From: Elusimicrobiota bacterium | Lineage (GTDB): Bacteria > Elusimicrobiota > Elusimicrobia > UBA1565 > UBA9628 | DNA: 64,000 nucleotides | Assembly: GCA_016218575.1 (NCBI GenBank) | Contig: JACRDN010000022.1 | Location: 1 to 64,000, forward strand | Direction: 5' to 3' | Part shown: in pieces, positions 2,925 through 24,240 of the stretch | Layout of the letters: every line of letters starts with the position of its first letter | How positions within the stretch are numbered: the stretch's first letter is position 1 | Notes under the pieces: generated by a model | The model's input: the letters and a program-made list of their open reading frames with translations, nothing else | The model's database searches: none | Told to the model about the DNA's origin: nothing | Position numbers and translations under genes: made by a program

Positions 2925-3983
2925 GTGATTGAGATACAGATTTTTAGGAACGGAAAAAAGATGAAGGTGGAGGTAGGAATAAGGACTTTAGGGATTCTGA
3001 GATCTCTGGAAAAGTGGGGAATCATGGGGTTGGCTCAGATGGAAGGGCTGCTGTTCTGCAACGGTTTGGATACGACGGCGAGGGTTGATTTGTTCTTCAA
3101 CTCGAAGTTCCGGGACGAGTATCGGGGGGCCAGTTACAAGGCTGTCAGGTACCTTGAGGAATTGGGTCTGGTAACGGTCAACCACTATACGAACATGCCT
3201 CGGATTTACACCCTGACTACGGCGGGGCACCAAGCCCTAAGGGGGCTGGACCTGTCTTTATTGCCGGAGTTCCGGGCCTCTTTGGCCGATTCTTTGGTCA
3301 AGCACGAACTGCTGGTCACCGGGATCGGCTTGGTCTTGAGCGAGCTTCTCGGCTTGTCCGTCTCGACCGAGTTTGAACGGCAGGTGTTCAGCCAGGGGGC
3401 CGCGCGGAGCGCGGCTGCGGGCGACATTCCCATGCCGGACCTTTGGATTTCTGAGCCGGGAAAACCCAAGGTCATAGAGGTGGAAAGGACGCAGAAGTCA
3501 CGCGAGCGTTACCGCAAAACCTGGGCGTCGTACCGGCACGATCTTCCGCCCGCGACGGTCGTGCTTTACATCACCTCCTTCCCCAACGGGCCAAGGCTCA
3601 TCCTCGCCAGGGCGCGAAAACTGATGGCCGACTTCATCTACGTGTGCAGCCTGGAGGACTTCAAAGCCAGCTTGGGGCGCGGCCCTTATGTGGGCTATCG
3701 CGGCGGCGAGATCGTGCTGGGCCAGCCCCAAGGGACGAATCCCCAGCGCGTCGCGCCAGCAAGCCTCCCAGCCCGCCAGGACGCCTCGGCCGGGGGGAGT
3801 CTTCCCGTCGCGCCGTTCGCTCCGCCTCCCCAATCCATCCGGATCGGGGAGCTCATCCGGCCGAGGGGCCGGCCGGATCAGTTCGCTGCGCCGCTGGCGA
3901 TTCGTCCCTTCCCCCGCCCCCATCCTCCGACTCCTTCCCCGGCCCCGGAAGGAGAGGAACTGCTGAACGGAGACCCGCGATGA
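2925..3983 (+). CDS. Replic_Relax-type protein, putative relaxase or initiator
   Basis: A 352-residue protein. GTG at 2925 follows AGAGGA with six bases of spacing; ATG at 2961 is an alternative. The N-terminal 120 residues look like a winged helix with L-R-S-L-E-K-W-G-I-M-G, Y-K-A-V-R-Y-L-E-E-L-G-L-V and a Y-T-L-T-T-A-G-H-Q-A-L segment. About residues 165-205 carry M-P-D-L-W, then V-I-E-V-E-R-T-Q-K-S-R-E-R-Y, resembling the PD-(D/E)xK-like core of the Replic_Relax family. That family is known from plasmids and integrative elements. The C-terminal 100 residues are Pro-rich. The stop overlaps the start of the coupling-protein gene (ATGA). No canonical relaxase is visible elsewhere in the window, so this is the best candidate for DNA processing. 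Confidence 0.65.
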   Translation: MIEIQIFRNGKKMKVEVGIRTLGILRSLEKWGIMGLAQMEGLLFCNGLDTTARVDLFFNSKFRDEYRGASYKAVRYLEELGLVTVNHYTNMPRIYTLTTAGHQALRGLDLSLLPEFRASLADSLVKHELLVTGIGLVLSELLGLSVSTEFERQVFSQGAARSAAAGDIPMPDLWISEPGKPKVIEVERTQKSRERYRKTWASYRHDLPPATVVLYITSFPNGPRLILARARKLMADFIYVCSLEDFKASLGRGPYVGYRGGEIVLGQPQGTNPQRVAPASLPARQDASAGGSLPVAPFAPPPQSIRIGELIRPRGRPDQFAAPLAIRPFPRPHPPTPSPAPEGEELLNGDPR

Positions 3984-5737
3984 GCCAAGTCCTCTTCCTA
4001 TTAATGATGGCGGTGATGGCGGCAAGCCTGGTCCTGTTGGGGCTGGGCTACAAGAAGACGGGCGCCGCCGTCTTCGCGAAGGCGGCCTTCATCTTCCTGG
4101 CCTTCCTGCCGTGGCGGACGGTGGATCTCCTGGTCCGGGACAACGCCCGGTTCCGGAAATGGGCCGTTCCCCGGATGGGCGCGGTCCGCCGCGGCTGGTA
4201 CTCCGCCTCGGGAGCCTTCAGCCTGGCGGTCGGCCTCTGCATCGCGCTGCGGAAATCCAAGCAAGGCCGCCGGTCGGAGTGGGACGAGCCGAAAGACCAG
4301 CGCGGTTTGGACAAGGCGCTTGAGAAACATCTGGATCGCGGGGCCGAGAAAGCCGGCACGTTCATGGGCATGGCGGCCGGGGGGCGGTCCGTTTTTCTCA
4401 CGCCGGTTTCCCGCGAGCGGCACATGCAGATCGTGGGGCCGACGCGCTCCGGGAAATCCCAGTTCCTCTTCGCCTTGAGCGCCCAGGACATGCGCCAGGG
4501 CATGCCGGTTTTCTTCATGGAAGCCAAGGGCGACCATTCCGATTTCGACCAATTCCACGCCCTGGCGGACCGCTGCGGCCGTGGCTCGGCGGTGCGCTAC
4601 TTCAATCCCCAGGACCCGCGCTCCCACACGTTCAACCCAATCCGCCCCGTCCCTGGGCAGGATGCCACGGCGCTCGCCAACCAACTGGCGCGGGTCCTGG
4701 GACGGGAGCCCAAGTCGTCCGGCGAGGGGAAGGACTACTACCTTCAGGTGGACTACGCCAAGATCCAGAACATGGCGGAGATCTTCTGGAAATCCGGCCT
4801 TCAGTTCACCTTCCGGGACTGCTTCTACTACTTCAGCCGCTCCGAGTGCCGGGAGAAGGCGTTTCGAGCCTGCAACGATGAGGCCTTGGTCGCGATGGCG
4901 CGGCAGGAGTTCGAGCAGAATCCGGACACCACGGCCCTGACCTCGGCGATAAGACCCTGGACCACCGGGGTATTGGGCGATCTCCTTAATACTTATTCGC
5001 CCCAGATCAAGCTGGAGGACATTTTCAACGATAAGCAGCTTGCCTACTTCGCCATACCGATAGGGCACCTTCAGGTCCTCGCCAACCCCCTCGGCCGGAT
5101 GCTGATCTCGGGCCTCCTGTCGGTGGCGACCTGGCGGCAGCAGGCCCGGGTCAAGCCCGGCCCGGCCTCGGTGATCCTGGATGAGTTTGCAGAATTCGCG
5201 ACGCCGGCTTTCAAGTCTTTCATCCAGACGGTGGGCTCGGCGCGGTTCTGGACCATTCTCTCCCATCAGGACCTGGGCCAGCTCAGGAATATCGAAGGGA
5301 TGGACGCCGACGCCTTCGAGTCCGCGGTGTTCAACAACACGTCCGGCTGCAAGGTGTGCTTCCGGACCCCGGACCCGGAGGACGCCGAATTCTGGTCCTC
5401 CATGCTGGGCACCTATTCGACTTTCGACGACACCGAGCGCGTTCAGAAGAGCTTCCTCGGAACCCGCGGGACCGGAGAGATGTCCCGCCGCAAGGTGGAG
5501 CACTTCAAGGTTCACCCCAATACCCTCAAGAATCTCAAGCCGGGGAGCGCGCTCGTGTTCGCTCCGGGCCACGAAGACACCATGGCTCGGACCGCGCGGG
5601 TCTTCAAACTGGCGGGCGGCCGGACGCCGGAACTGGAAGCCGTGATGCCTGAAACCGAGGAAGGCCTGGACCTGGCCTCGGCGGCCAAGCCCAGCCAGAA
5701 GACCGCCGTCGTCAACGAGAGAGGCCTCCGATCATGA
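3980..5737 (+). CDS. virD4: Type IV coupling protein, VirD4/TraG family
   Basis: A 585-residue inner-membrane ATPase that would hand the DNA-protein substrate to the secretion channel. Two or three N-terminal membrane segments (about residues 5-25, 32-50 and 70-85) precede the P-loop domain. Walker A is G-P-T-R-S-G-K-S near residue 155, and Walker B is V-I-L-D-E-F near 400. The length fits the family. ATG 3980 is chosen because it overlaps the upstream stop (ATGA) and starts directly with the membrane segments; the open frame upstream to 3644 is out of character. The 3' end overlaps the next gene in the same way. Confidence 0.9.
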   Translation: MSQVLFLLMMAVMAASLVLLGLGYKKTGAAVFAKAAFIFLAFLPWRTVDLLVRDNARFRKWAVPRMGAVRRGWYSASGAFSLAVGLCIALRKSKQGRRSEWDEPKDQRGLDKALEKHLDRGAEKAGTFMGMAAGGRSVFLTPVSRERHMQIVGPTRSGKSQFLFALSAQDMRQGMPVFFMEAKGDHSDFDQFHALADRCGRGSAVRYFNPQDPRSHTFNPIRPVPGQDATALANQLARVLGREPKSSGEGKDYYLQVDYAKIQNMAEIFWKSGLQFTFRDCFYYFSRSECREKAFRACNDEALVAMARQEFEQNPDTTALTSAIRPWTTGVLGDLLNTYSPQIKLEDIFNDKQLAYFAIPIGHLQVLANPLGRMLISGLLSVATWRQQARVKPGPASVILDEFAEFATPAFKSFIQTVGSARFWTILSHQDLGQLRNIEGMDADAFESAVFNNTSGCKVCFRTPDPEDAEFWSSMLGTYSTFDDTERVQKSFLGTRGTGEMSRRKVEHFKVHPNTLKNLKPGSALVFAPGHEDTMARTARVFKLAGGRTPELEAVMPETEEGLDLASAAKPSQKTAVVNERGLRS

Positions 5738-8700
5738 GATACGCCGCGCTTGCAGTCCTGCTGTCTTCCACGGTTTTCCCTGCGGAGCTGTTTGCGGGCG
5801 CCTACTTCCAACAAGCCTCCTTCCCGGTCGCTTATGCCTCGGTGGCTGGGACGGACAGCGATTCGCTCGGAAACCTATACGTCTTGGGGAGGCCGGCGGG
5901 AGGGGCAAGCTACCAGGTCTCCGGCTTCCAGACTCCCGGGATGTCGGCCCTTTTCTCTTTCGATACCGGCGTCTCCTCGCCTATCGCCTTCGCGGTCGAG
6001 GGCTCCGGGATCATCGACATCCTGGACGCATCCTCGACCACCGTCACGTTGAAGCGTTTCCAGAATACCGGAGCGTTCGTGGGTCAGGTTTCCTACCCGC
6101 TCATGGCCAGCATTTACGACAACCCCAAGACCGTATTTTCGGCCGCCATAGATAAGGTGAACGGCCTGGTGTATCTGGCGTACCAGCAGTGGAGAAGCTA
6201 TTTGTGCCTGCAATGCCTCGGTTGCGGCTGCCCTCCCAGCGGCTATAAGGGCTACATCAGCCAGTACGATTTTTCAGGGAGTCTCCTGCTGACGGTAACG
6301 ATGCCCGGCGTCAGCGCGACCTACAGCTCGTGCTATACGCCGTCTTCCCTTGCCACGGACCCCCAAGGGGATATCTTCGTCGCGGACAACGTCTGCCAGC
6401 AGCTCTTCAAATATTCCAAGGCCGGCAGCCTCTTGAGCACCTTCTCGCCGCCGAGCTGGACCTCCAACTACTACGTCACGGTCCGGGGGATGTGGTCCGA
6501 CGCGCAGTCCAACCTGTATATCAGCCAGCCGGTGTGCGGCCCGAGCGGATGCCAGGCGGGCGTCGTGAAGCTGGATGGCATGGGCAATGTCCAGAGCAAG
6601 TTGGCCGCGGACTCTCCGACGGGCTGCGCGTGGGATGACCGGATTCTTTATCTCAATTCCGCGGGCGCGACGCCTTTGCGGCGGTTTATTTTCAACGGCG
6701 TCCCATCCGTCCCCAGCGAGAGCGCCCCCATCGGGCCGGTGGTTCAGCATTCATCCTCCGCGGCTCTCTCCTGGCAGTCTTCGGGCGACCCGGACGGCGA
6801 CCCGGTGACGTATTACGTCAGCCTCGGCGTCTCGCCGACGCAGCTTTCACCGATCGGCAATACCTCGCAGACGAGCTTCAACACGGCGCCGCTTACTTTC
6901 GAGGCGACGTATTACTGGCAAGTCGTGGCCATGGACTCCTATCAAGGCGTCCCGCTGCAACAACAATCCGCGCCCGTGGTCAGCGCCCGGCTGAGCCTTC
7001 AGAATTCCGCGCCGGGGGCGTTCGGCGTCGTTTCGGGGACCGGCACGGTCCTCACGCGGGCCGCTACGGCGCCGTTATCTTGGCAGACGGCGACGGACCC
7101 GGACGGCGATCCCGTGCTCTATGACGTATTCTGGAGGCCCGCCTCGCAAGCCACGGCCGCGGTGATCGCAACGATACCGCAGAACTCCGCGCAAGTCAGC
7201 GGCCTTTCCTTCGGCGCGACTTATTATTGGTCCGTCAAGGCGAGGGACGTTTACAACGCCTCGCGGCTCATGGCGGGCGGGGTCGAGCAGCCCTACAACT
7301 TGGTGTTTAAGAACTCGCCGCCGCCAGCGCCGCCCATTACGAGCGGGACCGGGATTTCGCAGCAGCACACGCTCTCTCCCCAGGCCAACCTGGCGTGGGC
7401 CGGGGTCACGGACCCGGACGGCGATCCCGTGGCCTACCATCTTCATGTCGGGACCAATCCCGCCGCCCTCGCGGCGGTTCAGGACGGGGCCCCTACATCC
7501 TTTCCCCTGCCCGGCCCGCTTTTCGGCACGACGTATTACTGGCAGGTGGCGGCCTCCGACCCCTACGGCGGGGCCAGCACGAGCCCGATTCAAAACCTGC
7601 TCCTCGTCCTTCAAGACAACCCGCCGACGCCGGTCGTTTACCTGACCACGGCGACTTCTTGGAGCCAGCATGCCGCGTCGCCAAACGTCGCCCTGCGCTG
7701 GGCCGCCTCCAACGATCCCGACGGAGATCCGGTTTCGTATCTCCTTGAAATTCAGACGGGCACCGAAGCCTGGCCCTCGATTCCAATGGGAGCCGCAACC
7801 AGCATAACGGTGAACCCGCTTTTCGAGACGACCTACTACTGGCGCGTGACGGCCTCCGACCCCTACGGCGGGGCTTCCACGGGGTCGTGGATGAACTTCG
7901 CGGTCCATCTCGCGAACCGGCCGCCCAATCCCATCGTCTATTCGACGCCGAATACGCTCGTCACGCGGGCGACCAGCTCCATCCTAAGCTGGCAGGACGC
8001 CGGCGATCCCGACGGCGACCCCACGAGCTATAGCCTGTCGCTCTCGACCGATCCTTCGGCGCAATTCGCAGTCCAGCAGGGAACAGCCACGGCTTACAAC
8101 CTGGGGTTTCAATTCGGGACCACCTATTACTGGTCCGTCTCCGCGACCGACAGTTTCGGGGGGCGCACGGATGGCCCTCTGCAAAGTTTCCTTCCCGTCT
8201 TCAAGAACTCGCCGCCGCTTTCCTTTTCGATCCTCACCGGAGCGGGCGTCCTCTCCACGAGGAATGCTTCGCAGCTCCTGTCCTGGCAGGCCACGACGGA
8301 CCCTGATGGGGATGGGGTGGCCTACGACCTCTCCCTTTCGAGCGACCCCAATACCATGCCGATTGTTCAGAGCTCCACGGCCGCGAGCTACAGCCTGCCG
8401 TTCCAGTTCGGGACGACCTATTATTGGCAGGTCACGGCCCGCGATGTCTTCGGCGCGGCGACATCGCCCGGGCTTCAAACTTTCCTGCCCGTTTTTCGGA
8501 ATTCACCTCCAACCGTTCCGGTCAACCAATCGAAGGCCGGCACCGTCCTCTATCACGGTTTCGCTCCAGCGCAATCCTTCTTCTGGCAACCTTCGACCGA
8601 TCCGGACGGCGACCCCTTCGCCTATAGCTTCTATATAGGGACCGACGCGACGAATCTCTCGGTCTCGAGCCCGGTTCCCCTGGGCTTCACGGTCCCGAGT

Positions 8701-10392
8701 CTTTCCGTGAACACGGCCTACTACTACAAGATCGTGGCGACGGACAGTTATGGCGCCGCGTCGGCCTCTCCGGTCAACTGGGTCTATTACCAATTCTCCA
8801 ACGCCGCGCCGCAGGCGTTCGATACCGTGGCCGCCACCGGGACATTCGTCACCCGCGATACGACGGCGGGCCTCGCCTGGACGCTATCGACGGACCCCTA
8901 CGGCGATCCGGTCGCCTATCGGGTGTTCGCGGGCACCGCGGCGGCCTCGCTCGCGCCTTTGGGCGACACCACCCAGCCGAATTTCCTCCTATCCGGCCTC
9001 GGCTTCGGAACGACGTATTACTGGCGCGTGGAGGCCTACGACGGCTTGGGCGCGACTACGACGATCAACGGCGGGACCCAGAGCCTCCTCCACGTCTTCA
9101 GGATCGTCCCGCCAAGCCCCATAGTCTACCTGACCACCGCCGCGTCGTTCGGTCTGCACACGACCTCGCCAAGCGTGACCCTGAGCTGGTCGCCCTCCGC
9201 CAATGCGGACGCGGACCCGATCTCCTACCGCCTCGACCTTCAGGCGGGCGCCGGGAACCTGTCCTCGGTCGCGCTGGGCTCTGCGACGAACCTCGCGCTC
9301 GGCGTGCTATTCGAGACGACCTACTATTGGCGCGTGACGGCCTCGGACCCCTACGGCGGGGCCTCGACCGGCGCTTGGCTGAGCTTAGTGGCGCACTTCG
9401 CCAATCAACCGCCCGCGCCTTTCGCCGGCCTGTCCGGCTCCGGCAGCGTCTCGACTCGCGCGACCTCCCAGCTCCTCTCCTGGAAAAGTTCGACCGATCC
9501 CGATGGAGACGCCCTGACTTACGGCTTATTCCTGTCCACGAGTCCCGCTTTTCTGCCGGTCATACAGCAATCAACCTCGACCAGTTTCAACCTGGCGTTC
9601 GAGTATGGAACGACCTGCTACTGGCACGTCGAGGCCTACGACGGTTTTGGCGGCACGACATCCGTGACGGGCGGCGTGCAGACCTTCCTGCCTCTTTTCT
9701 TGAACGACCCGCCGGGCCAGCTCAACCTCGTCTCGCCTTTCAAGGGCTCCCCTGTGGTGAGCACCATGCGCAACAACGTCTTGGTGTCTTGGGGCCAGGT
9801 GACCACGCCCCAGGGCGACCCGATTACCTACACGGTCTACTTCGGAAATTCTCCCGACTCCATGGACGTGCTTACTCGCGTTACGCAGACGCTCGCCGCC
9901 AGCGGCCCAATACTCGCTTCGATGCCGGCGGCCGTCCGCCCGGCCTCTCAAGTGGAGCTGGAGGGCGATACGATCAAGCTGACCCTCTCCGGGCTCGACT
10001 ACTACCGGCGCTACTATCTCCGCATCGTGGCGACAAACCCCTACGGCGCGTCGAGCGCGACTTCGCTTCAGACCTTCGCCCTGAACCCGGAGAATGGCTT
10101 TCCCAAAGCCTACAACTATCCGAATCCCTTCAATCCCAATCGCGGCGGCACGCATATCGTCTTCAACGCCCCGTCGTCGGGCTATGCCAGCGCCAAGGTC
10201 TCGATCTACTCCGAGCTGCAGGACCTCCTGTTCGAGAAGGACTACGCGAACATCCCGCCCGGAATCAGCGAGTTCGTCTTCGACGGCCGGGACCGGAACG
10301 GCCGGTCTCTCTTCAACGGGAGCTACATCTGCCGGGTCCGCTTCACGGGGCCCGACGACAAGGAAATCTTCTACCTCCTGGTGGTGAAATAA
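5734..10392 (+). CDS. Giant FN3-repeat surface protein with T9SS-like C-terminal domain
   Basis: A 1,552-residue secreted protein. Residues 1-22 form a signal peptide. About 30-320 look like NHL or beta-propeller repeats with I-S-Q-Y-D-F and L-F-K-Y-S-K-A-G motifs and a Cys-rich loop (C-L-Q-C-L-G-C-G-C). About 330-1445 hold eleven FN3-like modules of roughly 100 residues, each with a D-P-D-G-D-P-V-x-Y signature followed by F-G-T-T-Y-Y-W-x-V. The last 95 residues begin Y-N-Y-P-N-P-F-N-P and resemble the FlgD-Ig or type IX secretion sorting domain. It is coupled by ATGA to virD4 and by TAATG to a PorV-like gene. An adhesin role in cell contact during conjugation is inference. Confidence 0.8.
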   Translation: MRYAALAVLLSSTVFPAELFAGAYFQQASFPVAYASVAGTDSDSLGNLYVLGRPAGGASYQVSGFQTPGMSALFSFDTGVSSPIAFAVEGSGIIDILDASSTTVTLKRFQNTGAFVGQVSYPLMASIYDNPKTVFSAAIDKVNGLVYLAYQQWRSYLCLQCLGCGCPPSGYKGYISQYDFSGSLLLTVTMPGVSATYSSCYTPSSLATDPQGDIFVADNVCQQLFKYSKAGSLLSTFSPPSWTSNYYVTVRGMWSDAQSNLYISQPVCGPSGCQAGVVKLDGMGNVQSKLAADSPTGCAWDDRILYLNSAGATPLRRFIFNGVPSVPSESAPIGPVVQHSSSAALSWQSSGDPDGDPVTYYVSLGVSPTQLSPIGNTSQTSFNTAPLTFEATYYWQVVAMDSYQGVPLQQQSAPVVSARLSLQNSAPGAFGVVSGTGTVLTRAATAPLSWQTATDPDGDPVLYDVFWRPASQATAAVIATIPQNSAQVSGLSFGATYYWSVKARDVYNASRLMAGGVEQPYNLVFKNSPPPAPPITSGTGISQQHTLSPQANLAWAGVTDPDGDPVAYHLHVGTNPAALAAVQDGAPTSFPLPGPLFGTTYYWQVAASDPYGGASTSPIQNLLLVLQDNPPTPVVYLTTATSWSQHAASPNVALRWAASNDPDGDPVSYLLEIQTGTEAWPSIPMGAATSITVNPLFETTYYWRVTASDPYGGASTGSWMNFAVHLANRPPNPIVYSTPNTLVTRATSSILSWQDAGDPDGDPTSYSLSLSTDPSAQFAVQQGTATAYNLGFQFGTTYYWSVSATDSFGGRTDGPLQSFLPVFKNSPPLSFSILTGAGVLSTRNASQLLSWQATTDPDGDGVAYDLSLSSDPNTMPIVQSSTAASYSLPFQFGTTYYWQVTARDVFGAATSPGLQTFLPVFRNSPPTVPVNQSKAGTVLYHGFAPAQSFFWQPSTDPDGDPFAYSFYIGTDATNLSVSSPVPLGFTVPSLSVNTAYYYKIVATDSYGAASASPVNWVYYQFSNAAPQAFDTVAATGTFVTRDTTAGLAWTLSTDPYGDPVAYRVFAGTAAASLAPLGDTTQPNFLLSGLGFGTTYYWRVEAYDGLGATTTINGGTQSLLHVFRIVPPSPIVYLTTAASFGLHTTSPSVTLSWSPSANADADPISYRLDLQAGAGNLSSVALGSATNLALGVLFETTYYWRVTASDPYGGASTGAWLSLVAHFANQPPAPFAGLSGSGSVSTRATSQLLSWKSSTDPDGDALTYGLFLSTSPAFLPVIQQSTSTSFNLAFEYGTTCYWHVEAYDGFGGTTSVTGGVQTFLPLFLNDPPGQLNLVSPFKGSPVVSTMRNNVLVSWGQVTTPQGDPITYTVYFGNSPDSMDVLTRVTQTLAASGPILASMPAAVRPASQVELEGDTIKLTLSGLDYYRRYYLRIVATNPYGASSATSLQTFALNPENGFPKAYNYPNPFNPNRGGTHIVFNAPSSGYASAKVSIYSELQDLLFEKDYANIPPGISEFVFDGRDRNGRSLFNGSYICRVRFTGPDDKEIFYLLVVK

Positions 10393-12242
10393 TGGGAATC
10401 CTCCTGCGCCTGCTCGCCTTATATCTCGGCGGCCTTCCGGTCTTCGCCCAAACCTCGGGAGCGACGCACCTGCTCTCGCGCGGGCCGGGAGCCGAGGCCG
10501 CGGCCCTGGGCAACTCGATCATCCCCACCGTCAACGACCCCGCGGCGCTTTACTGGAACCCGGCGGGCCTCGCGCACGCCGGGGGAGCGGTGATGGGCGA
10601 GCACCTGTTTCTCTATGACGGCGCGCGCTATGACTTTCTAGGGCTGAGCGTGCCGTCGCCGGTCGGCACCTTCGGCCTGGGCGCGCTGCAGCTCGACCGG
10701 GGTAATATCGTGGCCCGCAACGCCATAGACGATCCGGGGACGAAGGTCTCAAACAGCCAGTCGGACTATCTGCTGGGCTTCGCGCGGCGGCTGGGGGAGC
10801 ATTTCTCCGCGGGCGGGACGGCCAATCTCCTCAACTTCAACCTGGCCGGCTATCACGACATGTCCTTCGGCCTCGACCTCGGAGGGCAAGCCCGCTACCC
10901 GGGAGACGACCTCTGGGCGCTCAAGCAGACTCTCTGGTCTTTCGGGGCCGTGCTCAAGAACCTCTTGCCTCCGAGCCTCAAGCTCTTGAACGGCAAGGAC
11001 ACCCTCCCGCGCGAGCTGCGCGGCGGCCTGAGCCTGTCCTTCAATACTCTTTCGCGGGCTTCCTTGGATTCCGGCGTCATCCGAAGCGACCGGACCTCGG
11101 TCTCTCTATCGTTCAAGAAGGTCGCGGGAGAGCCGGGGCTTCATCCGGGCGTCGGCCTGAGCTACGCCCTGGAGAAATTGCTCGTGGTCCGGCTCGGCTA
11201 CGACCAGGGCATTTCCGGCGGCATCGGCCTCCACACCTCCGACGGGAAGTTCGCCGTGGACTACGCGCTTGAGAACAAGCCGTTGTCCATGAACCACCGC
11301 TTCACGGTGTCCTACAGGTTTCTCAAGGCCGCGGCCTCCGCCAACGCGCCGTCCCAACAAGAGGTGGACGAGGATTATGCAAAGGCCCTGGCCCGCGCCC
11401 AATCGCTCTCCGAGGAGCACTACCTCAAGGGCCGGGCCTACTTCAAGGATGAGAATTACGACAAGGCCATCGGGCCGCTCCAACTCGCGTCCCTTCTTGA
11501 TCCTGAGAATAAAGAGAAGGCCGATGCCCATAGGCGCGCGGTGGAAGTGAATAACCGGGAACGGCTTCGGAAGCTTTCGGATGTGGATGCCGTGGCTCCC
11601 GGAACCGAGATCAACGTCTATAAGGACTTGGCCGCGGCGCTGGATTTGCGGCCCGCCAACCGGACGGCGTTGATCGAGATCATGAAGAAATTGCCGGGGC
11701 GGATGAAGCCACAGGATTTCGAGACGATCTCCCAAGCCGCCGTTGAGCAAAGACGTGCCGAGATTCTCCGTCTAAAGACTGTCGGCCTTACGTCCGACGC
11801 CCTTTATCTCATCGAGAATCTCGAGGTCGGCCAAAGCGCCGCGTCCGCCGGCGCCATCGCTCTGCTTAAGGAACAGGTCCTGTCCGCAGGCGGGACCGCG
11901 CGGGCGTACCTGGAGGTCCGGGCCGAGGACGCGCGGCGATCCGGCAATTACGGCCAGGCTCTCCGCGCATTGACGGCCATTCAGCGGGCTTATCCAGACG
12001 ACCGCGAGCTCGCCGGCAAAGTCGAGTCAGGGAGGCGCGAGGTCGTATCGAGGGTTTCACTGACTTTACGGGAGCGGCTCTATCTGCGCAGGCTGTATTT
12101 CCTGGCGGCCGTCCGCTATGCCAACCACAACCCGGAGGCCGCGCGGGATCTCCTGGAGGAGATACTCCGCCGCAACGCGGCCGATCCGGACGCGAACGCC
12201 CTGGAAGAGGCGATGATTCGCAACAAGACGACGGAGGAATAA
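10392..12242 (+). CDS. PorV/PorQ-like outer-membrane protein with C-terminal TPR region
   Basis: A 616-residue protein. ATG 10392 shares its A with the upstream TAA, and residues 1-20 are a signal peptide (L-L-A-L-Y-L-G-G-L-P-V-F-A-Q). About 25-325 match the PorV/UPF0164 beta-barrel pattern: G-P-G-A-E-A-A-A-L-G-N, then N-D-P-A-A-L-Y-W-N-P-A-G-L, later Y-R-F closing the barrel. About 335-616 are helical, with TPR-like repeats (Y-L-K-G-R-A-Y-F-K-D-E-N-Y-D-K-A). In known type IX systems PorV shuttles CTD-bearing cargo at the outer membrane. The adjacent FN3 protein has a CTD-like end, so the two may be a cargo-shuttle pair. No other type IX component is in the window. Confidence 0.75.
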   Translation: MGILLRLLALYLGGLPVFAQTSGATHLLSRGPGAEAAALGNSIIPTVNDPAALYWNPAGLAHAGGAVMGEHLFLYDGARYDFLGLSVPSPVGTFGLGALQLDRGNIVARNAIDDPGTKVSNSQSDYLLGFARRLGEHFSAGGTANLLNFNLAGYHDMSFGLDLGGQARYPGDDLWALKQTLWSFGAVLKNLLPPSLKLLNGKDTLPRELRGGLSLSFNTLSRASLDSGVIRSDRTSVSLSFKKVAGEPGLHPGVGLSYALEKLLVVRLGYDQGISGGIGLHTSDGKFAVDYALENKPLSMNHRFTVSYRFLKAAASANAPSQQEVDEDYAKALARAQSLSEEHYLKGRAYFKDENYDKAIGPLQLASLLDPENKEKADAHRRAVEVNNRERLRKLSDVDAVAPGTEINVYKDLAAALDLRPANRTALIEIMKKLPGRMKPQDFETISQAAVEQRRAEILRLKTVGLTSDALYLIENLEVGQSAASAGAIALLKEQVLSAGGTARAYLEVRAEDARRSGNYGQALRALTAIQRAYPDDRELAGKVESGRREVVSRVSLTLRERLYLRRLYFLAAVRYANHNPEAARDLLEEILRRNAADPDANALEEAMIRNKTTEE

Positions 12243-12263
12243 AAAGTGAGTGAGGAGGTAGGC

Positions 12264-12563
12264 ATGAGAAAGAAAATGGGAAGGGCGCTGGCGGGATTGG
12301 GGATGCTGGCCTGGGCCGGGCAGGCCCACGCCTACGGAAACGAAGGGGCGCTGACCAGCTTCCTGGACCAGTCCGCCAACTGGCTGGTGACGATCCTGGG
12401 GCCGGGCATCTTCGTGATCGGGGTCATCATGGTGGGCATCAGCCTGTCGATCGGCGACCAGGACGCAATGCGCAAGGGCGGCTACGTGATCGGGGGCGGG
12501 GCGCTGATCTTCCTATCCCAGGCCGTGGTGGCGCTGTTGAAGCGCCTGGCGGGCGGGTTCTGA
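12264..12563 (+). CDS. virB2: VirB2/TrbC-like pilin
   Basis: A 99-residue propilin-like protein. ATG 12264 is chosen over GTG 12246 because GAGGAGGT lies just upstream. A long signal peptide ends A-G-Q-A-H-A-Y-G. Two hydrophobic helices follow, separated by a short polar loop (S-I-G-D-Q-D-A-M-R-K-G-G), the standard VirB2 topology. It would be the major pilus subunit of the conjugative type IV system. It follows the PorV-like gene by 21 bases and starts the structural half of the transfer operon. Confidence 0.85.
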   Translation: MRKKMGRALAGLGMLAWAGQAHAYGNEGALTSFLDQSANWLVTILGPGIFVIGVIMVGISLSIGDQDAMRKGGYVIGGGALIFLSQAVVALLKRLAGGF

Positions 12564-12646
12564 GCGCGCTGCGCGGGGCGGCGTTCGCGCACGCCGGGGA
12601 GCTGGTCGGACCGGTCATGTCGCAACTGAAAAGGAGGTTGGAATCC

Positions 12647-13039
12647 ATGGAAAAAGACGAGGCGGAGCCGGGAGTATCGACGGCGGGCGAGGGCGCGGAC
12701 CTGCCATACGAGAACGACGTGATGTTGACGGGCCGGTGCGGGAACGCGCCGAAAGTCACCAAAACGGAGAAAGGCCACTTGAGGGCGGCCTTTTCGCTGA
12801 CCGTCACGCGCGGCAAGGAGAGGACCTTCGTGAACGTGGTGGCCTGGGACGCTCTGGCGGAGAGCTGCGGACGGCTGGCCAAGAACGCCCCTCTGCATGT
12901 CGAGGGCCGCCTGCGAAGCTGGAAGGACGACGAGGGCAAGAAGTTCCAGTTGCAGGTCGTCGCCAACGTCGTGCAGCCGCTGAAGGACCCGCAGACCAAG
13001 GGCGTGGCGTCGCGCCAAGGGGAGTTGGCCGGCGTCTGA
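12647..13039 (+). CDS. ssb: Single-stranded DNA-binding protein
   Basis: A 130-residue OB-fold protein. ATG 12647 has AGGAGGT eight bases upstream and is preferred to ATG 12617. The core reads D-V-M-L-T-G-R-C-G-N-A-P-K, then A-A-F-S-L-T-V, F-V-N-V-V-A-W-D-A-L-A-E and G-R-L-R-S-W, the usual SSB strands. It lacks the long acidic-tipped tail (D-D-I-P-F) of chromosomal SSB. Conjugative elements often carry their own SSB to coat the incoming strand, but its place between the pilin and VirB3 genes is unusual. Confidence 0.85.
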   Translation: MEKDEAEPGVSTAGEGADLPYENDVMLTGRCGNAPKVTKTEKGHLRAAFSLTVTRGKERTFVNVVAWDALAESCGRLAKNAPLHVEGRLRSWKDDEGKKFQLQVVANVVQPLKDPQTKGVASRQGELAGV

Positions 13040-13089: not shown

Positions 13090-13383
13090 ATGGATAGCGT
13101 CAGGGTCTATCGAAACATCAATACCGTGGACAAGTTCTTCGGCTTGGAACTTGTGGACGGCTGCGTTCTGCTGGTCATCTTCTTCGCGGCCTTCAGCATC
13201 AACCGCGAGGGGCTTTTCAGCAACGGGGCTCTTTTGGCGCTCGTTTATTTCGGGTTGCGAGCCATGAAGCGCGGCAAGCCCGACCGCTACATGCTGGTGC
13301 TGTCGCGCCACGTCTTGATGAGCCGATTCAAGAGGGCTCCCGCTTTTGCGGAATGCGAACCGTTGAGGCCCTATATCAGATGA
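13090..13383 (+). CDS. virB3: VirB3/TraL-like inner-membrane protein
   Basis: A 97-residue protein with GAGGAG before ATG 13090. Two adjacent hydrophobic segments (V-D-G-C-V-L-L-V-I-F-F-A-A-F and G-A-L-L-A-L-V-Y-F-G-L) are followed by a basic, cytosolic-looking end with K-R-G-K-P-D-R-Y. Size, topology and position directly before VirB4 fit VirB3/TraL, which anchors the ATPase to the membrane. The stop overlaps the VirB4 start (ATGA). Confidence 0.75.
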   Translation: MDSVRVYRNINTVDKFFGLELVDGCVLLVIFFAAFSINREGLFSNGALLALVYFGLRAMKRGKPDRYMLVLSRHVLMSRFKRAPAFAECEPLRPYIR

Positions 13384-15818
13384 ACCGGATCGAGCTGATG
13401 TTGACCAACCTGAGGAGCATCCTGCACGGGCCGAAAGTCCCGCCGCTGGCGCAATACCTCAATCTCTGGAGCCTTTGGGGGGACACGCTCATCGGCGTCA
13501 ACCTGGACTTCTCATCGGTCTATGAATTGGAGTTCGACAACATCTTTCTGATGGAGCCCGGCCGCCAGGACCTTTTCTCCGCGCAATCCCGCTCCTTCCT
13601 CAACGCGCTCCCGCCCGACGCCACCCTGCAATTCCTCGTCCGCATCCGCAAGGGAGACCCGGAGGCATTGCGGGAACACCGGCAGGCGGTCCTTGGGGAA
13701 AATCCCGAGGACTTCGCCAGGGCTATCATCGAGAAGAAATGCGAGTTCATCGAGGGCAAGTTCATCCAGCGCCGACGGTATTTTCTCTACGTCACGAGCC
13801 ACCCGCGGGAGAGAAAGACCCCGCTGACCTTCATCCTCCCCACCTTCAACCACCCATGGCGGGAAGTCACGCGCGACTACCACGAGCTGCGGATCAAGGA
13901 ACACTCGGCTCTGGAGCAGATCGTTTCCGAGCGGCTCCACAGCATGGGGCTTCGCTTCAGGAAATTGGCTGGGCAGGAGGTCCTCGACCTGGTTTTTGAC
14001 CAGCTAAACCCGGGCCGGCCGCGCGGAATTGCCGCGCAAGGGCTTTCGCCGTTCAGAACCATCCGCGAGCAGGCGGCTTTCTACCCGTTGAAGGAGGAGT
14101 TCGACCACGTCCAGGTCAACGGAACGTATTTCAAGGGCTTGGGCCTTCTGAGGCTGCCCGAGGTTTCGCACCTGGGCTACACGCAGAAGCTCATCAACTC
14201 CCTTTGGCCGGATTCCGACCTCTGCCTCACCGTGCATTCCCTGGACACGGAGGGCGCGCTTTCAAGCCTCAAGCTCCGGAACAACATCACGCGGACGCTC
14301 GCTTTCTCGGCCTGGACCAAGAATTATGAGGCCGAGCAGAAGCACCTTGAGTTGGACGAGATGATTACGGAGATCCGCGCCTCGGCCCAGCGGCTTTTCC
14401 GCTTCGGCTTGTCGGTCCTGGTGAGGGCCGACAGCCTCGACGAGCTTAAGGACAAGACCAACCCCGTCATCGGCGCCTTCCACGATTTCGCTTCGGCCGA
14501 GGCGGCTTCCGACGATATGAACCATTTCCGGCTCTACCTCCAATCCATACCGGGGCATGGGGAACTGAACGACCGCAAGTTCTACGTCCAGACCAATGCC
14601 CTTGCCGGTTTCCTGCCGTTGACGGGCTCTTGGAGAGGCAGCCGCCAGAAGAAGATGCTGGTCGAGACCCCGCTGGGTGAACTGGTGGGCCTTGATCCTT
14701 TCGACGATGAGCTGCCGGCCAAGCACGGCCTCATTCTCGGGACGACCGGCTCGGGCAAGAGCTTCACCACCAACTATATCCTGAGCAACTTCATGGTCGA
14801 GTCCAAAAACAACCATGTGGTCCTAATCGACGTGGGAGGCTCCTACCGCAAGCTGGCGCGCTCCTTCAATGGAGAGTATCTCGAAGTCGCTTTATCCGAG
14901 GAGTTCGGGTTCAACCCCTTCCCGCTGAGGGCGCATATCGCTCCGGGCGGCCAGTTCGACGATGACGCCGTGGCCTATCTCTCCCTCCTGATCTCAAGGA
15001 TGTGCGTCGAGCAGGGGACCGGCGTTTCGGTCTATCAAAAGGGTTTTCTGGAAAAGGCGATCAAGGCGGCCTATGCCGACAAGGAGGAGGTCGTCTTGTC
15101 GGACATCCGCGCGCAGCTTTTCAACCTGGCGAAGGAACATCCGACGGCCAAGGCCTTCGCCGATGCCCTGGAGCTATGGACGTCGGGCATGTACGGGCGG
15201 CTTTTCAACCGGCCGGGCGCGCTCGACATCTCCAACCGCATGGTGGTCTTTGACCTTCAGAACCTCGAAAACCACCCGGACCTTCAGGGAGTCTATTTCT
15301 TCGTGATCCGTTCGATCATATGGGGCAAGCTCCAAAACCGCGCCTTAAAGAAGATCATCGCCATAGACGAGGGCTGGAAGTTCTTCAACGACGACGTGGG
15401 GGCGGAGCTGATAGAGAACCTCTACCGCACGGCCCGCAAGTTCAACGGCGCTGTATTCTCCATCTCGCAGTCGCCCGCGGACTTTCTTGAGACGCGCGCG
15501 GCCAAGGCCATCATCACCAACAGCTACATCAAGTACATCCTCAAGCTGACCAAGGGGCACGAGCTTCTCTCGCAGTTTGACCTCAATTCCAACGAGGTCG
15601 AGGCGGTCAAGCAGCTCCAGTCCAAGCAAGGCGTCTTCACGGATGTTTTCGCCAAGTACGGCAACCATTCCATGGTGGTCCGCATCGAACCATGCCCCCT
15701 GGACTACTGGATTTGCACGACCGATGCCAAGGACCGGGTGCGCGAGGACCAGGTCCGGGCCGATAACCCCGGCATCTCGGAGACCGATCTGTTGCTCAAG
15801 CTCGCGGAGGCTCGATGA
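13380..15818 (+). CDS. virB4: VirB4/TraC-like conjugation ATPase
   Basis: An 812-residue cytosolic ATPase that powers pilus assembly and transfer. ATG 13380 overlaps the virB3 stop and is preferred to ATG 13353. The N-terminal 400 residues resemble TraC_F. Walker A is G-T-T-G-S-G-K-S near residue 457, and Walker B is I-I-A-I-D-E-G near 660, followed by a Q-S-P-A-D-F segment usual in VirB4. The length matches the family. Gene order TraL-TraC-VirB5 fits F- or P-type systems. No VirB11 ATPase is found in the window. Confidence 0.92.
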   Translation: MNRIELMLTNLRSILHGPKVPPLAQYLNLWSLWGDTLIGVNLDFSSVYELEFDNIFLMEPGRQDLFSAQSRSFLNALPPDATLQFLVRIRKGDPEALREHRQAVLGENPEDFARAIIEKKCEFIEGKFIQRRRYFLYVTSHPRERKTPLTFILPTFNHPWREVTRDYHELRIKEHSALEQIVSERLHSMGLRFRKLAGQEVLDLVFDQLNPGRPRGIAAQGLSPFRTIREQAAFYPLKEEFDHVQVNGTYFKGLGLLRLPEVSHLGYTQKLINSLWPDSDLCLTVHSLDTEGALSSLKLRNNITRTLAFSAWTKNYEAEQKHLELDEMITEIRASAQRLFRFGLSVLVRADSLDELKDKTNPVIGAFHDFASAEAASDDMNHFRLYLQSIPGHGELNDRKFYVQTNALAGFLPLTGSWRGSRQKKMLVETPLGELVGLDPFDDELPAKHGLILGTTGSGKSFTTNYILSNFMVESKNNHVVLIDVGGSYRKLARSFNGEYLEVALSEEFGFNPFPLRAHIAPGGQFDDDAVAYLSLLISRMCVEQGTGVSVYQKGFLEKAIKAAYADKEEVVLSDIRAQLFNLAKEHPTAKAFADALELWTSGMYGRLFNRPGALDISNRMVVFDLQNLENHPDLQGVYFFVIRSIIWGKLQNRALKKIIAIDEGWKFFNDDVGAELIENLYRTARKFNGAVFSISQSPADFLETRAAKAIITNSYIKYILKLTKGHELLSQFDLNSNEVEAVKQLQSKQGVFTDVFAKYGNHSMVVRIEPCPLDYWICTTDAKDRVREDQVRADNPGISETDLLLKLAEAR

Positions 15819-16504
15819 AACGAATTCTACCCATTCTGCTTATTCTGATATTCCTGACGGAGGCTCCCGCTCATGCGATCATCGTGGACACCTTCGTCGG
15901 CAGCCTGAAGTACGCCCAGGACCAGGCCTATCAGGCTTTCATGAAGCTCAAGATCATCGAGGAGATCCGCATCCTCAAACAGAACTTCGACGCCTCCGTG
16001 CGCTACTACAACGAGTTCAAGCGCCTCAACGAGGGCCGCGGCATCCTCTACAACGTGGGAATGCAGCTCAAGGTCGCCGCGGAGCAGATGGGCGACGACT
16101 TGCAGCGCTCCGTGGACCGCGACTTCATCAACACCTACAAGACCGATACCAAGGTGGACCAGTTCTTCCAGAGCATAGACCACGGGATCGCCAACAACAT
16201 GAAGTACGCGGGCGACGAGCTGGGAAACCTCATCGCCAATCGCAAAATCGGTGTCGATATCGCCAGAAACGCCGGGAACCTTTCCCCGAAGGACGCGGCC
16301 AACCTCGCGGTGAAGGCGCAAGGCATTCAGCTTCAATATCTTTCCCAGATTCACGAGGATAATATCAGGATCATCGAGATACACTCCCTGCAACTGGCAA
16401 ACGACACCAGGCGCCAGCAGGCCGAGCAGCGCCTGATCGAAAGCGTCCGCAAGAGCGTGAAGAAGTTGGCCCCGGGGGCCGTCCGTGAGGAGGAACCCAA
16501 ATGA
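15815..16504 (+). CDS. virB5: VirB5/TrbJ-like periplasmic protein
   Basis: A 229-residue exported protein whose start overlaps the VirB4 stop. Residues 1-21 are a signal peptide ending A-P-A-H-A. The mature part is almost wholly helical with charged heptads (L-K-I-I-E-E-I-R-I-L-K-Q-N-F; K-A-Q-G-I-Q-L-Q-Y-L-S-Q-I). This fits VirB5/TrbJ, the minor pilus-tip protein, in size, export and place between VirB4 and VirB6. Sequence identity to the family is not obvious, so the assignment rests partly on order. Confidence 0.7.
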   Translation: MKRILPILLILIFLTEAPAHAIIVDTFVGSLKYAQDQAYQAFMKLKIIEEIRILKQNFDASVRYYNEFKRLNEGRGILYNVGMQLKVAAEQMGDDLQRSVDRDFINTYKTDTKVDQFFQSIDHGIANNMKYAGDELGNLIANRKIGVDIARNAGNLSPKDAANLAVKAQGIQLQYLSQIHEDNIRIIEIHSLQLANDTRRQQAEQRLIESVRKSVKKLAPGAVREEEPK

Positions 16505-17472
16505 GCCCGAGCCTCTTCATCGACATCACCGTCATTCCCGCGAAGCTCTCCGGCCTTGCGGGCCTGGTCTCGGGCCTCGCCGGGGCCATGCTGGCTTTCA
16601 TCATCCCCTTCACCATCATCGAGATGAACGTGAGGAGCCTGGAGTCCAAGGAGAGGCCAAGCTACAGCGGCCTTTTCACTCGGGTTTTTGCCGTGATCGT
16701 ATGCCTGATGTGCTACCAGCGCCTCTTCTATTTCATCCTCAAGGTGTCCCAGATCATGTCTTTCGCCATTTTGAGCGAGCAGGATTGGGGAGACTTCCTG
16801 ACCCGATCCCTGAAGGGCAGCGACTCGACCTATCCGACGCTCTCCATACTCTTTCACTCCGTCACGTCGATACAGCAGATCATCCTTTTCCTCTCGACGC
16901 TCGTCGCCGTCACGGTGAGGGACGTGATCGTGATGCTCCAGGGCTGCTTCTTGAGCCTCCTGTTCGCCTTCGGACCCATCGCCATCGTCTGCTCCGTGAA
17001 CCAGAAGAGCGCCCAGGTCACCCGGGGCTGGCTTGCCAACTCCTTCCAGGCGGCGTTTTGGAGCTTCTTCCTGCGGCTGGTAATGCGGGTCTGGCTTACC
17101 TTGGGACCCATGGCCGCCTCGGCCGGAGCCGGCGGTGCCGACGACTATCTCGGGATGCTCACGGTGAACGTAACCTTCATCCTGCTGGTCCTGGGAACCC
17201 CGGTCGTTTCGGCGCGGCTGCTCTCGGGCGAGAACCTGGCGGCCTTCGGGGAGGCGGCCTTGGGCACAATGCAGACCTTGGTCATCGCCAAGACCCTATC
17301 CACCGGCAAATTCGCCAGCAGCGAGGTCGAGAAATACAAGAAAGCCTCGCCGCACGAGCAGAAGAGCTTCTTTCACCATCCCATTCCCGCCACCATGACT
17401 CGGACGTATCAGAGTCTCTTCGGCGCCCCGAAGGCCCCGAGCCGGACGGACGGCACGGGGAGCAAGTCATGA
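16501..17472 (+). CDS. virB6: VirB6/TrbL-like polytopic membrane protein
   Basis: A 323-residue protein with about six to eight hydrophobic segments, among them V-S-G-L-A-G-A-M-L-A-F-I-I-P-F-T, F-A-V-I-V-C-L-M-C-Y and L-L-F-A-F-G-P-I-A-I-V-C. A central W-L-A-N-S-F-Q-A-A-F-W motif is typical of VirB6/TrbL. It would form part of the inner-membrane channel. Start and stop both overlap neighbours by four bases. The hydrophilic C-terminal 60 residues contain a basic, Ser-rich tail. Confidence 0.75.
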   Translation: MSPSLFIDITVIPAKLSGLAGLVSGLAGAMLAFIIPFTIIEMNVRSLESKERPSYSGLFTRVFAVIVCLMCYQRLFYFILKVSQIMSFAILSEQDWGDFLTRSLKGSDSTYPTLSILFHSVTSIQQIILFLSTLVAVTVRDVIVMLQGCFLSLLFAFGPIAIVCSVNQKSAQVTRGWLANSFQAAFWSFFLRLVMRVWLTLGPMAASAGAGGADDYLGMLTVNVTFILLVLGTPVVSARLLSGENLAAFGEAALGTMQTLVIAKTLSTGKFASSEVEKYKKASPHEQKSFFHHPIPATMTRTYQSLFGAPKAPSRTDGTGSKS

Positions 17473-18176
17473 GCCTGCTGGGACGTTTCTTCAACAAGAA
17501 GGGCGCGGCCGGGCCACCCCCGACGGCCAGGGCCGCGGCCCCTATCGCGACTGCGATCCCGGCGTACTACGAGGTTTGGGGCAGCCTTGAACGCGCCAAC
17601 CGGGCGCTGTGGGCCGGCCTCTGGCTGGCCACGACGACGGCCGTCCTGTGCCTCATCCTGGTGCGGCTTCTCATTACGCGACCGCCCATCGTGATCCGGG
17701 TTACCGACGCGGGCATGGCGCAAGTCGTCGCGGACCCAAGCCGCCAGCCCCCGGTCAGCGAGGCGGAGATCAAGAACTTCCTTTCGCTTTTCGAGAGGTT
17801 CTTCTTCGGCCTCAACGCCTACACCTACGAGGCGGATCTCAATGTGGCCTTCCCCATGATGACGGCGGGCTTCCAGCCGAAGGCGAACGACATGCTCAAG
17901 CGCCAAGGCACCATTGACGCCCTCAAGTCGAACCAGGGCCGCGTGACGGTGACTCTCACGGAACTGAAGGTTCTCCGCGACACGACCGATATCGTGGAGT
18001 GCCGGGTCATGGGAAACCGGCAAGTGGGCTCGTTCAAGCTGGACGGCGGCTCGGGACGGGTGGTTTTCGAGCACGATATCATACTGCGAAAGGTGCCTCG
18101 ATCCGACAAGGCTCCCTACGGAGTCCTGGTCGATGATCTGCACGAGAGCGTCTATGAAAATACTCTTAAAAACTAG
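17469..18176 (+). CDS. virB8: VirB8/TraE-like assembly protein
   Basis: A 235-residue bitopic protein. ATG 17469 overlaps the VirB6 stop; the open frame to its left is a shadow. A Pro/Ala-rich cytosolic stretch is followed by one membrane helix (about residues 50-70, A-L-W-A-G-L-W-L-A-T-T-T-A-V-L-C-L) and a periplasmic domain of about 160 residues with N-F-L-S-L-F-E-R-F-F-F and a G-R-V-T-V-T-L-T-E-L strand. Layout and position match VirB8/TraE, the nucleation factor of the inner-membrane complex. Confidence 0.72.
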   Translation: MSLLGRFFNKKGAAGPPPTARAAAPIATAIPAYYEVWGSLERANRALWAGLWLATTTAVLCLILVRLLITRPPIVIRVTDAGMAQVVADPSRQPPVSEAEIKNFLSLFERFFFGLNAYTYEADLNVAFPMMTAGFQPKANDMLKRQGTIDALKSNQGRVTVTLTELKVLRDTTDIVECRVMGNRQVGSFKLDGGSGRVVFEHDIILRKVPRSDKAPYGVLVDDLHESVYENTLKN

Positions 18177-18987
18177 CGCGCCTTGGATCGTGCTCTCGGT
18201 AACGGCGGCGCTATGCGTCGTCTTTGGGCTCTCGTTCGGCAAGGAACGTTCGACCGGGACCACCTACAGCTCCTTCGGGAGCCTGGTTTCGACCTTTGCC
18301 GCCGCACAGGCTTCGTTGGACAAGCACCTCGGCTCGAATCCCTCGGCGGCGGTGGCGGCGACGACTGGCCAGGAGCCCGCCGGCGGGCTCACAGTTTACG
18401 ATCAGTCTCCCTCTGAGGTGACCAAGACAACCGCCACCGCTCCAGGCGCTCGAATGCGGAGAGCGGGCCGCCATCGTTCTTCCCTGAAAGGCGCACCGGC
18501 CCGGCCTCCGGCTCCAGCGCCGCCTGATTCGCCGGACAAGCGAAACGGTGCTCCCTCCCCGATCGAGGGAATCCCGGTGGCGGCTCCCGCGGCAGAGCCC
18601 GCGGTGGGACCGATTGAATTCACTCCCGATTTGATCCGCGACTCATTTGACGGCGAGCTCTCGAAGTTTCCTCTCGACCTGAAGATCGCCAATGAGAGGG
18701 TGTCCCTGCGCCTTGAGGGTCTGTGCCGTTGGCGCGGCCACTTCATCCTGAAGGTCGCCGTAGACAACCAGACGGGCGGAGACTTCTTCGTGAAAGAGCT
18801 TTCCGCCTATGACGGGTCGGTTTACGTGACGATCAAATCCTATTTCAGGCTCCTGGTGGAGCCCGGAAGGACCCGGGAGGGACATTTGCTTTTCGATGCC
18901 CCCGCGGGCGCCAAAGTCAAAATCACACTAAAGGAGGATCGGGAGAACGGCCGGGCTATGGAGTTGCCAGTCCGCTATCCCTTTTGA
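18154..18987 (+). CDS. Membrane-anchored periplasmic conjugation protein, unassigned
   Basis: A 277-residue protein. ATG 18154 lies inside the end of the VirB8 gene and opens directly into a membrane anchor (W-I-V-L-S-V-T-A-A-L-C-V-V-F-G-L). A Ser/Ala- and Pro-rich linker of about 100 residues follows, then a 110-residue beta-rich domain (L-K-I-A-N-E-R-V-S-L-R-L-E-G; S-V-Y-V-T-I-K-S-Y-F). Anchor plus Pro-rich linker is the plan of the VirB10 N-terminus, while the beta domain recalls VirB9/TraK. It may supply the part that the short VirB10-like protein downstream lacks. This is inference. Confidence 0.55.
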   Translation: MKILLKTSAPWIVLSVTAALCVVFGLSFGKERSTGTTYSSFGSLVSTFAAAQASLDKHLGSNPSAAVAATTGQEPAGGLTVYDQSPSEVTKTTATAPGARMRRAGRHRSSLKGAPARPPAPAPPDSPDKRNGAPSPIEGIPVAAPAAEPAVGPIEFTPDLIRDSFDGELSKFPLDLKIANERVSLRLEGLCRWRGHFILKVAVDNQTGGDFFVKELSAYDGSVYVTIKSYFRLLVEPGRTREGHLLFDAPAGAKVKITLKEDRENGRAMELPVRYPF

Positions 18988-18992
18988 AATCC

Positions 18993-19514
18993 ATGCACAC
19001 GACATTGCCGGAATTCTTGGAAAGGAAACCGCACTCGCCTTCGAGACCCGTTCCGCCCACGCGAGCCATGATCGAGGCCCTGCACCGGCCTTTGAGCGCG
19101 ATCTCCTCGCCGCCTTTGGACGACAACGGCGCTCCCATGGAGGAGGAACCCATGCGCCTCAAGGATGTTGCCTCTGCCGCCAGCCCGAAGGCGGCGGAGC
19201 CCAACCCGTTCTTCAAATTCCGGTTCAAGCGCCCCTGGTTCGGCGAGTACACCACCAAGGATTACAAGTTTGTCCTGCGGGTGGAGCACTTCCCGGAGCT
19301 GATGCGGTTGGTCAATGAGTTCAACAAGACCAGGCCGGAGGACGAATTCCCGGTCAGCGTCTCCGACATCGTGAGCGCGGCGCTCGATTTCGTTCTGGAC
19401 CACCCCGTGGTATTGACCGGTCTAAAGAAACCGGAAGAAATCCGCGAGGCCATGGCCACCGCCATTTACCGGAAGGCTTACTGGCCGTTGAGGCAGCTCC
19501 ATGAGCTATTTTAG
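18993..19514 (+). CDS. Unknown ICE protein, paralogue A
   Basis: A protein of 173 residues from ATG 18993 (TTG 18984, overlapping the previous stop, is the alternative). The N-terminal 85 residues are Pro-rich and look disordered. The C-terminal 80 residues align by eye with the C-terminus of the gene at 20202-20651: V-L-R-V-E-H against L-L-R-V-D-H, S-D-I-V-S-A-A-L-D-F-V against S-D-I-V-N-G-V-L-D-F-A, and closing L-H-E-L-F against F-N-E-A-F. A strand followed by two helices recalls a ribbon-helix-helix fold. No function is known to me. Confidence 0.6.
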   Translation: MHTTLPEFLERKPHSPSRPVPPTRAMIEALHRPLSAISSPPLDDNGAPMEEEPMRLKDVASAASPKAAEPNPFFKFRFKRPWFGEYTTKDYKFVLRVEHFPELMRLVNEFNKTRPEDEFPVSVSDIVSAALDFVLDHPVVLTGLKKPEEIREAMATAIYRKAYWPLRQLHELF

Positions 19515-20651: not shown

Positions 20652-20657
20652 TGGGTC

Positions 20658-20705
20658 TTGACAGAGGTATACTTATACATTACACTGTTAGTAATTCGCT
20701 AACAG
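20658..20705 (+). promoter_or_regulatory. Promoter and inverted-repeat operator of the abiE genes
   Basis: TTGACA (20658-20663) and TACACT (20681-20686) are 17 bases apart. CTGTTAG (20685-20691) and CTAACAG (20699-20705) form a perfect 7-bp inverted repeat over the -10 box and probable transcription start. AbiEi antitoxins are known to autoregulate by binding inverted repeats at their promoter, so this is the likely operator. The local AT-rich composition stands out from the GC-rich operon. Confidence 0.7.
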
Positions 20706-20722
20706 GAGATAATACTACTAGA

Positions 20723-24231: not shown

Positions 24232-24240
24232 TGATTTTCA

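Follow-up and report, generated by a model that had tools for sequence, protein, structure and literature searches.

The window analysed here is a stretch of 64,000 nucleotides at the start of contig C22 (JACRDN010000022.1) in a 2.82-Mb metagenome-assembled genome from the Elusimicrobiota. In it, the type IV secretion system (T4SS) operon of a putative integrative element contains, between virD4 and virB2, a gene for a 1,552-residue fibronectin type III (FN3) protein with a C-terminal domain (CTD) of the type IX secretion system (T9SS) or FlgD type, followed by a gene for a PorV-family barrel. On balance, homology and gene content favour the view that this pair is a mating-contact module of the T4SS, in which the FN3 protein would be an adhesin exported through a SprA-like channel of the host and held on its own PorV. 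Every fully readable conjugation-type cluster in the class carries the pair, which suggests that mobile elements of the Elusimicrobiota take hold of the recipient by means of a surface adhesin borrowed from type IX secretion. Except for a few plasmids, little is known of the way in which a donor recognises its recipient and holds on to it. In the window, the genes for the proposed contact protein and for its partner in the outer membrane stand together with those of the transfer machine and can be tested as a unit, and two secretion systems that are usually studied separately are linked.

Distribution of the pair in the class

In a survey set of 147 genomes of the same class, a search with the window PorV gave 13 strong orthologues, spread over 12 other genomes (40–64% identity, E <1e-120), after which there is a gap in the scores. 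Of its 14 loci in GTDB, 13 are titled Elusimicrobia or Elusimicrobiota bacteria and one only "bacterium". Since a PorV query would bias the sample, VirB4 was chosen as the survey query and searched both as a protein and as PF19044, giving 21 loci in 19 genomes. A CTD cargo gene is present 5' of a PorV gene in all 18 loci that could be assessed, those in which a single contig holds VirB4 with sufficient flanking sequence (G000, G001, G006, G012, G013, G027, G028, G033, G034 with two, G036, G037, G039, G040 with two, G057, G058, and G059). The locus in G032 is split between two contigs and is consistent with the pair, while G029 was left out because its contig is short and stops inside VirB4. 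An apparent exception, G068:C38 (L152), is probably a foreign contig and was not counted; it is 8.7 kb with 39% GC, and its VirB4 is 24% identical. By eye, M23 endopeptidase-like and PrgI-like genes lie beside VirB4 on this contig. Our estimate of the chance that a PorV gene lies within 10 kb of VirB4, given that the 2.8 Mb contain seven PorV genes of near full length, is about 5%, which is a guide only since the loci share ancestry. Related elements are not, then, without the two genes, in keeping with the original prediction that the pair belongs with the transfer genes.

The pair is found in three diverged types of T4SS, called T4a (that of the window), T4b, and T4c. The T4a loci have the order virD4-FN3/CTD-PorV-virB2-ssb-virB4 as far as the contigs reach, so that the virD4-FN3-PorV-virB2 order for which a survey had been proposed does recur in relatives. 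To the limits of the contigs, the pair adjoins virD4 and/or virB2 in all T4a elements. The stop-start overlap of cargo and PorV is present in most loci with a readable junction. This recurrence in other elements of the class means that the order is more than chance. In L048, from a single-contig genome (G037:C1), there are frame shifts in virD4, FN3, PorV, virB2, and virB4, which are probably sequencing errors.

In T4b (L051, L052, L053, L054), where VirB4 is 31–43% identical to that of the window, the pair is located after virB8 in L051, L053, and L054, and before virB10 in L051 and L054, the contigs of which reach far enough. In L052 it is between virD4 and virB2. The T4b CTD protein is a shortened FN3-CTD of approximately 280–295 residues, and there is a separate secreted protein alongside. 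In L051 a Phage Tail Collar domain was identified in this neighbour (E 2.1e-15 to PF07484), and in L052, L053, and L054 the match to the collar is by resemblance only. A tail-collar protein beside a short CTD protein fits receptor binding and an adhesin role; judged from this architecture, the slot would be that of a tail-fibre tip. By eye, a methyltransferase-like gene is also present within the collar-like/FN3-CTD/PorV-TPR group of L053 and L054. In T4c (L094, L095) VirB4 is 28–32% identical to that of the window and the PorV is shorter.

Among 40 PorV barrels compared in a tree, the 19 that are linked to a T4SS all fall, together with L017, on one side with support of 100/99, and 20 host rows fall on the other. 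The host rows are the next-best matches and the window genome's own copies, which is not a random sample, and three long branches are unsurely placed. That the T4SS PorVs form one branch apart from the host PorVs would suggest that the pairing is old and has been inherited with the T4SS, and the simplest reading of these sequences is one old recruitment followed by such inheritance.

The FN3 protein and its PorV partner

The FN3 protein has an N-terminal signal peptide, an N-terminal domain of about 300 residues that has only weak NHL/propeller matches (E 0.065), FN3 repeats, and the CTD. The fn3 match (E 5e-25) has 5 significant stretches, and there are about 11 repeats at a motif spacing of 100 residues. 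The CTD (YNYPNPFNPNRGG...NGSYICRV...LLVVK) matches FlgD_ig at E 4.8e-4, with a score below the cut-off, and CHU_C at E 0.06, while its profile matches in the PDB are FlgD, PorZ, the PorU CTD, and the T9SS CTD chain 8GLJ. The description of a long FN3 protein with such a CTD between virD4 and virB2 was therefore accurate. A Foldseek search with a model of the CTD and the last FN3 was swamped by antibody Fabs and was not used. Across T4a the tips are 48–65% identical to that of the window and the CTDs 57–75%, and the signal peptides are kept. The open frames of the cargo proteins range about three-fold, from 856 to 2,731 residues, the difference being in the length of the stalk.

Both genes are joined to their upstream neighbours by stop-start overlaps, as had been noted: virD4 and FN3 share ATGA at 5734-5737, and the PorV start is the ATG at 10392, not 10389, in a TAATG with a 1-nt overlap with the FN3 stop. 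The PorV protein, which scores 90.6 bits against the NCBIfam family PorV_fam (NF033709, cut-off 90), consists of a barrel (residues ~27-311) and a tetratricopeptide repeat (TPR) domain (~320-610). The best PDB matches in Foldseek to its AlphaFold2 model (predicted local distance difference test score, pLDDT, 84) are T9SS PorV, 8GL6_F at E 1e-10 and 6H3I_F at E 8e-9. One of the top PorV structural matches carries a bound CTD substrate. Relative to the window copy, identity across T4a elements is 52–76% in the barrel and 28–52% in the TPR. Among 72,556 plasmids there was one weak match to PorV, on a non-mobilizable plasmid of Rhodothermus.

Type IX-like genes in the host

The host has a SprA/Sov homologue of about 1,855 residues (L092:2721-8288, on contig C23 of the same genome) that matches TIGR04189 at E 1.7e-52 with 178.1 bits, under the equivalog cut-off of 200 bits. 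Such a homologue is found in 139 of the 147 class genomes and in none of 14 controls, and a profile of 11 class members matches the solved SprA 6H3I at E 1.1e-24. As read from these matches, SprA/Sov is divergent and nearly universal in the class.

There are 8 PorV_fam matches in the host genome, 7 of them near full length and 6 over the cut-off. Five host PorV genes, the element copy apart, had their context read (L058, L060, L061, L062, L063); each comes immediately after (3' of) the gene for a secreted cargo protein whose C terminus is CTD-like, and several of these pairs overlap. The cargo includes M4-protease-like, 1,894-residue kelch/FN3, and multi-FlgD proteins, and one cargo protein passes TIGR04183 (29.9 bits, cut-off 23); there is apparently one PorV per cargo. 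The host is thus not without type IX genes. Sov is represented there by the SprA/Sov homologue, and a PorU catalytic domain was not found among the matches listed. The system is type IX-like and is not classed here as a canonical T9SS member.

Proposed mechanism and points against it

The FN3 protein would enter the periplasm by means of its signal peptide, which can be seen in the sequence. From homology and the gene content of the host, the co-encoded PorV would then recognise the CTD, and the protein would be threaded through the SprA/Sov-like channel in the outer membrane. As no PorU sortase was found in the host, the CTD may stay on PorV, as in SprB-SprF or type B CTD-PorP, so that a protein of about 1,500 residues would stay attached to the cell surface, and its N-terminal domain would be the part farthest out. 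The TPR of PorV would face the periplasm and tie the adhesin to the T4SS, and the tip would take hold of the recipient, either ahead of DNA transfer or in the course of it. The surface location and mating contact are what we infer from the genes. A wider proposal, which is tentative and a little short of probable, is that there are phylum-wide hybrids of a VirB-type T4SS and a built-in type IX-like adhesin exported via a SprA-like channel, in which exchangeable tips, propeller-like or tail-collar, choose the recipients.

Absence of the PorU catalytic domain from the matches also leaves the original description of PorV as a shuttle, delivering to PorU, unsupported, and makes a docking or anchoring partner more likely. 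With this detail corrected, the genomic evidence supports the original interpretation.

Several observations weigh against a mating-contact module that depends on type IX-like export. The best PDB profile match of the CTD is FlgD, above the T9SS CTDs, and the sorting domain PF18962 (Por_Secre_tail) has no match in the host. For PorU, the NF033707 matches listed among 57 genomes are all in the C-terminal 150 positions of the profile, none covering the catalytic (C25) domain, and there is no match in the window's own genome among those listed. GldM was found in 0 of 28 genomes, but the controls gave no match either, so this is uninformative. Pfam recognised no relaxase among the genes that were scanned, and the element's left end lies off the contig. 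The T4c PorVs are short and without the full TPR region, so the TPR is not universal. Finally, G061:C25 has, at the edge of the contig, a pair of cargo and PorV genes (L017, L172:323-2201) that is on the T4SS branch of the tree. The 16 kb that were read there contain no T4SS, and this pair may be a remnant, a cut element, or a host pair.

Alternative explanations

That VirB7 and VirB9 were not recognised among the operon proteins raises the alternative that PorV-TPR replaces them as a structural component of the T4SS in the outer membrane, with the FN3 protein as a surface extension of the pore and no type IX export. The location of PorV-TPR beside the pilin gene and its inheritance with the T4SS would agree with this. 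It is nevertheless unlikely, as the barrel is homologous to T9SS PorV, its paralogues in the host are paired with CTD cargo without being part of a T4SS, and VirB7/9 in a diverged form could be among the operon proteins that have no assignment.

Exclusion genes are common in transfer operons, and a surface protein encoded within one might instead be a surface-exclusion or defence factor, which would cover the donor cell and prevent redundant mating or the binding of phages and would not promote attachment. This is quite improbable, given that the tip is 48–65% conserved between elements and not diversified by exclusion group, and that the tail-collar protein adjoining the T4b CTD protein points to binding.

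Similar cargo-PorV pairs are scattered through the host genome, and the pair could be cargo of benefit to the host, such as a biofilm or nutrient adhesin, that is hitchhiking in the operon without a role in transfer. That all T4SS loci open to assessment have it within the core genes, at two different positions and with PorVs of one branch, makes this very improbable. Equally improbable is an ordinary FlgD-type Ig fold with a FadL-like porin and no type IX link: although FlgD is the best profile match and FadL is lower in the Foldseek list, the best PorV match has an E-value some five orders of magnitude better than that of FadL, PorZ and PorU CTDs match too, host CTD genes lie directly 5' of PorV genes, and SprA is present.

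Relation to known systems

The mating-contact module proposed here resembles the Bacteroidota T9SS (SprB-SprF and type B CTD-PorP, PMC9143113; PDB 6H3I, 8GL6) in its adhesin-like cargo, C-terminal Ig-type domain, adjoining barrel gene, and SprA-type channel in the host. In SprB and the type B CTD proteins the cargo is bound to the barrel (PMC9143113). It differs in that the barrel of the element is PorV-like with a TPR tail and is encoded in the T4SS operon of a mobile element, that no PorU catalytic domain was found and GldM was undetected in an uncontrolled search, and that the host is outside the Fibrobacterota-Chlorobiota-Bacteroidota (FCB) phyla (PMC11285876). T9SS genes are stated to be absent outside these phyla (PMC11285876), against which SprA, PorV, and CTD-type genes are present through most of an Elusimicrobiota class. 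No paper describing a T9SS in Elusimicrobi* was found in the open-access PubMed Central (PMC) literature searched, nor was any description there of a T4SS with a CTD-cargo/PorV pair, as the original prediction had also held for conjugation systems of this build.

The RSP and RSP2 proteins of IncHI plasmids are likewise Ig-domain proteins of very large size with genes in the transfer region; they are exported in dependence on pilus proteins and are required for conjugation, and, unlike for the pair of the element, no T9SS-type CTD or PorV partner is reported for them in the available portions of these sources (PMC6764697, PMC8730810). Efficient conjugation in Bacillus subtilis requires a thioester adhesin (PMC8092201), and such Gram-positive adhesins share with the FN3 protein that they are element-encoded surface adhesins, proposed here as a mating aid, but differ in fold, anchoring, and cell envelope. 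As in VirB/Trb-type T4SS, homologues of VirD4, VirB2, VirB4, VirB6, VirB8, and VirB10 are in one operon, and unlike these the window operon has a single-strand DNA-binding protein (SSB) and the CTD-cargo/PorV pair in its core.

The element in the window

The features of the element are listed in Table 1. The contig begins at base 1 of the window and therefore lacks the element's left end. There are conjugative T4SS parts (the VirD4 and VirB4 ATPases, VirB2 pilin, VirB6, VirB8, and VirB10), and DNA transfer is assumed from the presence of VirD4, SSB, and the integrase. The closest plasmid VirB4, from Myxococcus, is only about 26% identical. The MobC-like gene keeps its position upstream of virD4 in relatives. 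The ATG of virD4 at 3980 overlaps the stop of the preceding gene, within a frame that is open from 3644. A profile of the protein at 18133-18987 had no match in the PDB.

Table 1. Features of the window element, and tail-collar or collar-like genes of T4b loci
Feature	Position	Strand	Evidence or remark
Replication-relaxation/MobC-like winged-helix protein, PD..E.E..K-like motif	2925..3983	+	NF041423 MobC_subf weak, E 0.09; start uncertain
virD4-type coupling protein (VirD4/TraG)	3980..5737	+	TraG-D_C E 2.7e-9; T4SS-DNA_transf E 1.7e-8
Tip, FN3 stalk and T9SS/FlgD-type CTD protein, 1,552 residues, proposed adhesin	5734..10392	+	
Putative C-terminal sorting/docking domain, residues ~1463-1552	10120..10389	+	FlgD_ig; profile matches
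PorV-family barrel with C-terminal TPR	10392..12242	+	NF033709 90.6 bits
VirB2/TrbC pilin	12246..12563	+	PF04956 E 1e-10
SSB	12617..13039	+	PF00436 E 5.9e-13
VirB4/TraC ATPase	13353..15818	+	PF19044 E 4.6e-37
T4SS-operon protein without Pfam match	15815..16504	+	conserved in relatives
VirB6/TrbL-like	16501..17472	+	PF04610 E 1.5e-4
VirB8-like	17469..18176	+	profile match to TrwG E 6e-4
Two T4SS-operon proteins, no family assigned	18133..19514	+	conserved in relatives
VirB10/TrbI	19501..20202	+	PF03743 E 3.3e-16
Tyrosine integrase	22678..23862	+	PF00589 E 1.2e-27
tRNA-Ser	24140-24232		ARAGORN
Tail-collar or collar-like secreted proteins, T4b	L051:7118-8524, L053:1670-2962, L054:5958-7379, L052:11245-12207		

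No repeat of the tRNA end (att site) was found within the window, the left end of the element being off the contig. The integrase is 0.3 kb from the tRNA-Ser, which would place the right end of the integrative element here. After virB10 the order is an AbiE pair, a helix-turn-helix gene, the tyrosine integrase, and tRNA-Ser. The AbiE pair, of the AbiEi/AbiEii toxin-antitoxin type, is at 20624-22428 and is also present in L042/L156, with a copy in L159 that is possibly broken.

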